Shown here: positions 21,021 through 23,203 of the stretch, piece by piece
Layout of the letters: every line of letters begins with the position of its first letter
Position numbering within the stretch: the stretch's first letter is position 1
Origin: Acidobacteriota bacterium
Lineage (GTDB): Bacteria > Acidobacteriota > UBA6911 > RPQK01 > JAJDTT01
Direction of reading: 5' to 3'
Assembly: GCA_028874215.1 (NCBI GenBank)
Contig: JAPPLF010000061.1
Location: forward strand, 124,001-188,000
Length of the DNA: 64,000 nucleotides
Position numbers and translations under genes: made by a program
The notes under the pieces: model-generated
The model's input: the letters and a program-made list of their open reading frames with translations, nothing else
What the model was told of the DNA's origin: nothing
The model's database searches: none

Positions 21021-21172
21021 CCCACCCTCATCTCCCACGACACCTGCGAAAGGTGCGTGGGGCCGCGTGAAGCGGTCAAAATGATCATCGTCGAGGCGTT
21101 CGCTGACGCCACGCCGTCTCCCTGCCGCTGTCCCACCCGGTCAACTGAACTGTCAGATAACGTGTCAGATTA

Positions 21173-21202
21173 TTGACATGGATCACTCTATCCATTTATA
21201 AT
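21173..21202 (+). promoter_or_regulatory. Consensus sigma-70 promoter with internal dyad, upstream of fic
   Basis: TTGACA at 21173-21178 and TATAAT at 21197-21202 are separated by 18 bases: both hexamers match the sigma-70 consensus perfectly. Between them lies the inverted repeat ATGGAT-N6-ATCCAT (21178-21195), placed where a repressor would block RNA polymerase. TGTCAGAT is directly repeated just upstream (about 21151-21170). The transcript would start near 21209, about 44 bases before the Fic start codon. The region is unusually AT-rich for the window. Confidence 0.75.
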
Positions 21203-21252
21203 ATAGACACTTAGGTAGTCAAATAAGGTGTCGGTATAGGTGTCCAATAGAT

Positions 21253-22428
21253 ATGGATTGGGAGCAATTCGAGTTTGAATACCGTTTCAAGACCGACAAC
21301 CTTCTGAGGCTTTTGGTCACCATCGAAGCATACCGGGAGGCAACGCTCAACCTCGTGCTCCCCCCGGACTGGCGCGAGCAGTTGGACCGGTTGAACCGGG
21401 TGCGTGCGATCCATGGGACAACGGCTCTCGAAGGGAATCCGCTCTCCGAACAACAAGTGGCTGAATCTTTGCACGGCGGGGGCGGCAACAACCACCAAAC
21501 GAGAGAACAAATTCAGATCAAGAATGCCGGACGAGCGCAGGACTGGATCAGATCCAGATTCGCGAAGGACCGAGAGCCGCTCCGGCTTCGGGACATCTTG
21601 GAGATGCACCGACTGATGACCGAAAAGTCGGACGAGACCAACAACGCTCCGGGAAAGTTTCGGACCGTTCGTGTGGTCGTGGGGACACCGGCTCTGGGGG
21701 GTGTCCATCGTGCGGCACCGCCCGCTGACGTCCCCCGCTTGATGGACGATTTCGTTGCGTTCATCAACTCCGGCAGATTGCGCCACGAACACCCGGTGAT
21801 CCGAGCCTTGCTCGCCCACTTCTTCCTGGTCACCATTCATCCATTCGGAGATGGCAACGGCCGGGTTTCGCGGCTGGTCGAGGCCGCCATCCTGTACCAG
21901 GGAGGATACAACGTACTGGGGTTCTACGGGCTGTCCAGTTACTTCTATCGCAACCGCGACGAATATATCCGCAGCCTTCAGGAATGCCGGAGAACTCAGC
22001 CTTTCGACGTTACATCATTCGTGAGTTTCGGCCTTGTAGGCTTTGCCGCCGAGCTCGGGGGAATCAACAACTTCATCAAGACCAAGCTCAATCGGATGGT
22101 GTATCGCTCCACGATGCAGAAAGCCACAAACCAGAAAGTGGGAAAACGCCGGCGGGTTCTCAATGACCGGGAGTACGATCTTCTCGATTTCCTCCTCCGA
22201 GAGACCGAGCCGGAAGATCCCTTTGCGGAGAAGCCCTCCATACAGATCCCATTTTCTGAACTTCTGGAATCCCCTTACGTCCGGGCTGCCTACCGCAACG
22301 TGACGCGGCGCACCTTCTGGCGTGAACTGGAGCGACTTTGGGATATGGGTTTCATCGTCCTCCGGCGCCCTGAGGGATCCGACGGAACGACCATCGAAAT
22401 TGACTTCGACGCCATCGGCAGATACTGA
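21253..22428 (+). CDS. Fic family protein (class II, self-inhibited AMP/nucleotide-transferase type)
   Basis: Fic enzymes attach AMP or another nucleotide part to a hydroxyl of target proteins; several are toxins or stress regulators. The 391-residue protein has the catalytic loop HPFGDGNGR at residues 196-204, matching HPFx[D/E]GNGR with all key residues. An N-terminal inhibitory helix fits [ST]xxxE[GN] as TTALEG at 56-61, so autoinhibition by Glu 60 is expected (class II). The 300-391 tail looks like a winged-helix domain (RTFWRELERLWDMGFIVLRR). The ATG at 21253 is preceded by a consensus promoter. No separate antitoxin gene is needed. The target is unknown. Composition is lower in GC than the neighbours, suggesting recent arrival. 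Confidence 0.92.
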   Translation: MDWEQFEFEYRFKTDNLLRLLVTIEAYREATLNLVLPPDWREQLDRLNRVRAIHGTTALEGNPLSEQQVAESLHGGGGNNHQTREQIQIKNAGRAQDWIRSRFAKDREPLRLRDILEMHRLMTEKSDETNNAPGKFRTVRVVVGTPALGGVHRAAPPADVPRLMDDFVAFINSGRLRHEHPVIRALLAHFFLVTIHPFGDGNGRVSRLVEAAILYQGGYNVLGFYGLSSYFYRNRDEYIRSLQECRRTQPFDVTSFVSFGLVGFAAELGGINNFIKTKLNRMVYRSTMQKATNQKVGKRRRVLNDREYDLLDFLLRETEPEDPFAEKPSIQIPFSELLESPYVRAAYRNVTRRTFWRELERLWDMGFIVLRRPEGSDGTTIEIDFDAIGRY

Positions 22429-22567: not shown

Positions 22568-23203
22568 ATGAAACACGTTTTCATATATTGGGACAATTCG
22601 AACATCTTTCACGAAGCGCAACGCTTTGCCGAGGAGCGCAATGAAGGGCCCGGCGCTCGCTTTCGCGTGCGCATCCATTTCGACAACATCTTCCGTCTGG
22701 CGCATGCCGAGCGACCCGTGCAGAGGGCGGTTGCGGCAGGTTCCATACCACCGGAAATGCGGCAGTTGTGGAACCGGATGGAGAGCAACGGCGTAGAGGT
22801 GAAACTCTTCGACCGCGGCGACCCGGCGCGAAGTGAACAAGAGGTGCCCGATCGGTTGCTCCAGTTGAGAATGCTGGAGGATGCGCTCGACTACAACGGC
22901 GACCCGGGCATCGTGGTGCTCCTGACCGGAGACGGCGCCGGTTATCGTGAAGGCGCGGGTTTCCACAGCGCGCTGGAGCGCATGCACAAGCGCGGCTGGC
23001 GGGTGGAGATCCTGTCATGGGGGCATTCCTGCAACCAGCGGATGCGGCGATGGGCGGAAGAGAAGGGTGTTTTCGTTGCGTTGGATGATTTCTACCAGTC
23101 GATCACCTTCATGGAGCCGTCCAGACCGGGGTTCGAATTTGCGTTCGGGCGCGAGCCAGCCGAGCTGGACCTGTCGCGCCGGCCATTGGCTCAGCGGGGT
23201 TAG
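22568..23203 (+). CDS. NYN-domain (PIN-like) ribonuclease, LabA/Limkain-type
   Basis: Probable RNA-cleaving enzyme of the NYN subgroup of PIN domains. The ATG at 22568 follows a GAGGAG ribosome binding site; a longer frame reaching 22322 overlaps fic and is not family-like. The 211-residue protein has the first acidic motif IYWDNSNIFHEAQ (Asp 9 and neighbours), a middle VEVKLFDRGDPARSEQEVP, VVLLTGDGAGYREGAGFHSAL (second acidic block) and VEILSWGHSCNQRMRRWAE with ALDDFY at the end, where the further acidic residues of NYN proteins sit. It follows fic by 140 bp and is followed by ruvA after 7 bp. Whether it works with Fic is not shown. Confidence 0.8.
   Translation: MKHVFIYWDNSNIFHEAQRFAEERNEGPGARFRVRIHFDNIFRLAHAERPVQRAVAAGSIPPEMRQLWNRMESNGVEVKLFDRGDPARSEQEVPDRLLQLRMLEDALDYNGDPGIVVLLTGDGAGYREGAGFHSALERMHKRGWRVEILSWGHSCNQRMRRWAEEKGVFVALDDFYQSITFMEPSRPGFEFAFGREPAELDLSRRPLAQRG

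Follow-up and report, generated by a model that had tools for sequence, protein, structure and literature searches.

Tandem 12-bp direct-repeat arrays flank the promoter of a fic gene of an Acidobacteriota bacterium and are a candidate operator for Fic autorepression

Two arrays of 12-bp direct repeats were found on both sides of the promoter of a fic gene in the DNA stretch analyzed here (64,000 nucleotides of an Acidobacteriota genome, contig JAPPLF010000061.1; hereafter, the window). Sequence comparison establishes that the arrays exist, that they keep a strict 12-bp period and a position at the promoter, that they are conserved among Fic homologs and that no neighbor gene accompanies them, and modeling predicts a winged-helix fold of the C-terminus of Fic. 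As to the binder, the repression and the cooperativity, we infer that Fic probably represses its own gene by cooperative winged-helix binding to the arrays flanking its promoter. The coordinates of the features are given in Table 1.

Table 1. Features of the fic locus in the window.
Feature	Position	Strand	Evidence or remark
Left (upstream) array, three 12-bp units: GGTCAACTGAAC / TGTCAGATAACG / TGTCAGATTATT	21139..21174	+	Score 19/21; 0/8000 shuffles as high
Sigma-70-type promoter TTGACA-N18-TATAAT	21173..21202	+	12/12 match
ATGGAT-N6-ATCCAT dyad in the promoter spacer	21178..21195	.	Probably not functional
Right (downstream) array, three 12-bp units: AGTCAAATAAGG / TGTCGGTATAGG / TGTCCAATAGAT	21217..21252	+	Score 16/21
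Fic gene	21253..22428	+	391 aa; Pfam PF02661 (2.9e-19), FICD alignment, PADLOC SoFic (3.3e-48), domain model
NYN-domain gene	22568..23203	+	PF01936 (1.1e-08); NYN also in L021

The initial annotation of this DNA had pointed to a repeated TGTCAGAT ahead of the gene. It is present, at 21151 and 21163, and belongs to a series of 12-bp direct repeats with the core G-T/C-C-A/G, the best unit of which is TGTCAAAT. The repeat is significant as part of a 12-bp triple: when arrays were scored as TGTCANAT three times at 12-bp spacing (maximum 21), no shuffle, with dinucleotides only preserved, reached the score of the left array. This array precedes the promoter, and its last unit runs into the -35 hexamer; the right array sits between the -10 hexamer and the ATG and ends one base ahead of the latter. 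Triples of TGTCANAT scoring at least 15/21 on either strand of the 64-kb window were restricted to these two arrays. When the window was divided into 1268 overlapping background pieces, 16 contained three G[TC]C[AG] cores at 12-bp distances and 76 contained three of the looser G[TC]C. Two background places scored 16/21, namely, a remnant in the related genome G001 (L021), considered below, and a place in L004, from the same genome as the window, that precedes another Fic gene by about 660 bp. Pho boxes consist of 11-bp CTGTCAT repeats; such a reading of the arrays was rejected, the period here being 12.

The consensus and the spacing were set on the window and on two homologs (L013 and L014, 57–58% identity). 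A subsequent search of 193 genomes supplied the test set, seven new full-length homologs with 60–66% identity to the window Fic. The arrays of L013 and L014 scored 18 and 17 (0/8000 shuffles as high in each case), and 12 was the best of the spacings from 8 to 40 in both. The seven new homologs scored 16, 15, 15, 14, 14, 14, and 18, and 0, 1, 5, 16, 13, 32, and 0 of 2000 shuffles, respectively, were as high. Spacings of 20, 24, and 33 score one point above 12 in L062, and other spacings tie with 12 in L060 and L061. All relatives were drawn from samples of one phylum; L057–L061 belong to a single family of genomes, which limits their independence.

The period was also assessed without a consensus, in the 200-bp upstream regions of the window gene and eight homologs (57–66% identity; L059 was excluded from this autocorrelation). 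Pairs of G[TC]C[AG] occurred 27 times at distance 12 (about 0.9 expected from shuffles), 16 times at distance 24 and 6 times at distance 36 (shuffle means of 0.9 or less), and distance 28 also gave 6 pairs. Pairs at distance 12 numbered 0 in the first 200 coding bases, 2 on the upstream minus strand, 2 and 3 in the two stretches of 200 bp 3' of fic, and 6 in the adjoining 200 bp beyond the upstream regions, where other distances reached up to 7. The full-length set comprises ten members, the window and nine homologs; a near copy in the close relative G002 (L011, gene split over two contigs) was excluded. Three strict G[TC]C[AG] cores in 12-bp register precede the gene in nine of the ten members, and three looser G[TC]C cores in all ten. 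Runs of at least three G[TC]C are located upstream in eight members, near the start codon in seven, and in both places in five. The genomes in which the arrays go with fic belong to three classes. The set of ten excludes truncated or degraded relatives: L015/L027 (G222), with internal gaps, carries a single triple at its 5' end, scoring 13 to 15, and the truncated L028 (G267) has no array (52/1000 shuffles as high). The latter relative (positions 1354–2196) follows, by our own reading, a cytochrome-like ORF, carries the altered Fic motif HPFDDANGR and is apparently decaying.

The open reading frames flanking the ten fic loci (n = 204, at least 80 codons, within 1.5–2 kb) gave no match between loci at E 1e-6; when the search was repeated at 1e-3, controlled by the 204 self-matches, a single match of 27 residues appeared, between L058 and L059. 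Since the fic loci share no common neighbor ORF, the arrays belong to fic. At the other nine loci, no ORF at a distance of up to 1.5 kb matches the NYN gene, which is a neighbor rather than a part of the conserved unit. Among the five neighbor proteins searched in Pfam besides Fic and NYN (ORFs of at least 60 aa), no antitoxin family was detected; a small antitoxin gene next to fic would mark a type II toxin–antitoxin module with a class I Fic.

The content of the gap between pyrF and ruvA varies within the genus. It holds fic and NYN in the window and NYN plus another ORF in G001 (L021 2754–3842); in G002, fic was seen beside pyrF. In the corresponding gap of G003, neither fic nor NYN is present. 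In addition, fic is patchy, being found in 5 of 396 genomes of the phylum at E 1e-60. This distribution would suit arrays that are the ends of a mobile element that brought fic, rather than an operator. Such an origin is very unlikely, as the arrays flank the promoter and not the gene, the period is missing on the 3' side, triples scoring at least 15 occur only in the orientation of fic (window and the loci surrounding L013 and L014), and no transposase was found among the window neighbors scanned for families. Searches for close relatives of the gene found none in the viral contigs searched, none in plasmids (one match of 25.6%) and none in phages (11 records, at most 32.1% identity). A near-identical 3' end of fic is present in L010, from a metagenome-assembled genome deposited as Candidatus Aminicenantes (COS4_bin_49).

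The sister genome G001 lacks a close copy of fic (E 1e-60). Its NYN gene is present, but from the first codons of fic to the 3' flank the ORF has been lost (L021 1828–1934), apparently at a junction with a short common stretch, GGA, and the arrays are left in front of NYN. The upstream region is still recognizable, and its comparison with the window shows changes at 1 of 18 positions of the GTC cores and at 40 of 95 of the rest (P = 0.0018), i.e., the cores survive while the promoter and the dyad decay. In G002, all 18 core positions are unchanged, which is not significant alone (P 0.11); its left array has 7 changes in 32 positions, above the 15 in 116 of its flank, and none of them falls in the GTC cores. 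The cores of the right array show no change in either genome. Since the cores were kept in G001 without fic, either fic was lost recently or the repeats are read by another protein. A separate host regulator with fic as one of its targets would be such a protein, and we regard this alternative to Fic as rather unlikely. The arrays accompany fic in three classes with no common neighbor ORF, and the genome of the window has a single match to the triple (up to three mismatches), the fic site itself, and therefore no sign of a regulon. The probabilities given here to the different readings overlap, the sign of regulation being a separate matter from the identity of the binder. A regulon was also sought among 396 genomes, and this candidate was rejected: the triple pattern with up to three mismatches occurred at 28 places in 19 genomes, and the Fic family was found at 2 of the 28, one of them being the window (five largest ORFs per locus considered). 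The other places include 12-nt coding repeats. In the genome G304 (L041, L051–L056), a 12-nt coding repeat (N-D-K-I units) yields many TGTCA-like repeats and is unrelated to fic.

A fully consensus sigma-70 promoter, rare for a high-GC genome, had been described ahead of the Fic gene, and both its place and its rarity were confirmed. The hexamers TTGACA (21173–21178) and TATAAT (21197–21202) match the consensus at six of six positions each, with an 18-bp spacer inside the 16–18 range, 50 bp ahead of the Fic gene. No other perfect site (spacings 15–19, either strand) is present in the window. The whole 5.7-Mb genome contains two perfect N18 sites and none of the reversed control pattern, with approximately 0.003 sites expected per genome according to a second-order Markov model from the window, which gives a rough estimate. 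The second site (L007 1501–1530) lies in front of a gene assigned by Pfam to ribosomal protein S20. From 21141 on, the GC content of the stretch before the fic gene is 30–40% in 30-bp steps, versus about 63% in the window. A promoter-like site with a 10/12 match lies on the minus strand (21222–21195), overlapping the fic promoter, with its -35 hexamer in the right array.

Both hexamers are identical in G002, and in G001 the -35 hexamer is changed at 2/6 and the -10 hexamer at 1/6 positions. In the 200 bp upstream of the other nine full-length members, the best sigma-70-like match is 5–10/12, and a near-consensus promoter is not a trait of the Fic family. Hexamers are poor (5–8/12) in seven homologs, and the left array abuts the -35 hexamer, which is an activator position; both would agree with arrays that activate transcription. 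This reading, with its variant in which the array of the 5' leader acts in RNA, overlaps the others and is unlikely: the window promoter already matches at 12/12, and the leader is occupied as far as the ATG by the right array, a placement typical of repressors. An array unit is also present upstream of the transcript; therefore, RNA alone cannot explain the arrays.

The dyad in the promoter spacer had been proposed as the operator. It is indeed present, and a place between -35 and -10 is classical for operators. At least one perfect 6 + 6 dyad with a loop of 3–10 nt is contained, however, in 243 of 1102 overlapping 116-bp stretches (22%), so that the dyad alone is not significant. In G002, it is one base off, with the first ATGGAT arm intact, in G001, 5 of 12 arm positions are changed, and the exact dyad is absent upstream of the nine other full-length homologs. 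It is probably not functional as an operator, and its use by a dimeric repressor seems highly improbable. The further ATGGAT at the start codon is likewise present, at 21253, and was rejected as a binding site, being Met-Asp coding: the start MDW is common to nine of the ten full-length members. L014 reads MNW, and it and L058 have a GTG start. A wide inverted repeat with 10-bp arms separated by N26 over the -35 and -10 hexamers was not found at the fic promoter; the only inverted pair of at least 8 nt in 21100–21270 has 11-nt arms, 82% complementary and 47 nt apart.

Fic proteins are AMP-attaching enzymes. The window protein carries the Fic motif HPFGDGNGRVSR at residues 196–207, in agreement with the class II pattern of FICD and SoFic-like proteins, HPFx[D/E]GN[G/K]RxxR; this motif is kept in all ten full-length members, with I replacing V in one. 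N-terminal to the Fic core, the sequence T56-T-A-L-E-G61 corresponds to the class II inhibitory motif [S/T]xxxE[G/N]; TTALEG is found in all ten members and aligns with TVAIEG of FICD. By its motifs, the window protein is a class II (self-inhibited) Fic, a class defined also by AMPylation or deAMPylation activity. The premise that a toxin under so strong a promoter needs tight repression is weakened by this conserved inhibitory motif. The PADLOC SoFic profile covers residues 46–371, yet the protein stays far below the cut-off of the NCBIfam SoFic equivalog NF046030 (36.8 vs. 550 bits).

As for the C-terminal part, a winged helix is predicted at approximately residues 300–391. The C-terminal 97 residues modeled alone, from one sequence, gave this fold with a pLDDT of 76.2 and the element order a-b-a-a-a-b-b; the full-length model is poor (pLDDT 37.9). 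The first rows of the Foldseek search contain winged-helix regulators, namely, the operator-binding repressors MftR (in complex with operator DNA) and MecI and regulators of the Fur family, with a weak best E-value of 0.004, and the best Z of VIA-align was 8.4, barely over the level that the tool calls “common”. Fic or CccR did not appear among the matches listed in the structure searches of the domain, which is uninformative either way. No Pfam HTH family passed the cut-off in the window Fic (HTH_11, E 0.2). The segment VTRRTFWRELERL is well conserved across the Fic family and by its position would be the recognition helix; its reading of GTC is what we infer. Thus, the C-terminal winged helix that characterizes Fic-HTH autorepressors of the CccR type is found here as a predicted domain.

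The regulatory circuit with the Fic winged helix suggested in the initial annotation is therefore retained in part: the arrays are conserved in the family and the fold is predicted, and the ATGGAT sites are dropped as its targets. In the autorepression that we consider probable, the winged helix of each Fic protomer would bind one 12-bp unit of the two arrays, one running into the -35 hexamer and the other extending from just past the transcript start to the ATG. Lined up cooperatively, the protomers would obstruct RNA polymerase. The DNA helix has 10.5 bp per turn; a 12-bp step is therefore a turn of ~50 degrees per unit, and Fic protomers in a row would follow a helical path around the DNA. 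Upon entry of the gene into a cell, or each time Fic comes off the DNA, the strong promoter would produce a burst of Fic and then be shut down. It may also be, though this is distinctly unlikely, that Fic forms a cooperative filament on the two arrays and that DNA occupancy sets both transcription and the state of the enzyme, either with DNA raising the activity, as in CbFic2, or in the opposite sense. If so, the arrays would be a sensor platform, and a loss of DNA contact, e.g., in a phage attack, would release the promoter and switch the enzyme together.

Self-inhibited Fic enzymes, some of them anti-phage, have one case of gene-level control that we found in the literature considered, CccR of Yersinia pseudotuberculosis. 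According to the passages of its description seen (PMC9755527), CccR combines a Fic domain with a C-terminal HTH, like the window Fic with its predicted winged helix, and autorepresses. Its operator is one inverted repeat (10 bp, N26) to which a dimer binds, whereas the window has tandem 12-bp direct repeats flanking the promoter. The anti-phage class II Fic SoFic/EcSofic has the inhibitory and Fic motifs in common with the window Fic, and the passages of PMC12249575 seen do not describe an operator of the native gene. CbFic2 of Coxiella is likewise a class II Fic with a C-terminal wHTH; this domain binds DNA, and DNA raises the activity of CbFic2. The assays used random DNA, and the parts of PMC10628234 seen give no specific operator, in contrast to the candidate arrays described here.

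Control by direct repeats is known for other proteins. RptR, the repressor of an E. coli defense island, autorepresses via three short direct promoter repeats, in likeness to the arrays; the parts of PMC12255303 seen show that these are 9-bp repeats holding a 6-bp palindrome and that RptR is an alpha-helical protein, not a Fic. The winged-helix protein TubR lines up on the direct repeats of tubC and represses its operon, its row of protomers winding round the DNA (PMC5016525, in part). TubR serves plasmid partition, and the likeness is in the working only. The listed titles and beginnings of abstracts in open-licence literature on Fic operators and direct-repeat control contained no tandem 12-bp Fic operator. 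Judged on these sources, a Fic autorepressor is already known from CccR with its palindrome, and a tandem 12-bp operator would be a new form of such control. The strict period of the candidate operator, held across a Fic family, points to a defined DNA target, a rule for its spacing and a minimal domain; if true, autorepression would be a second way, tandem rather than palindromic, for a Fic-winged-helix protein to read its own promoter.
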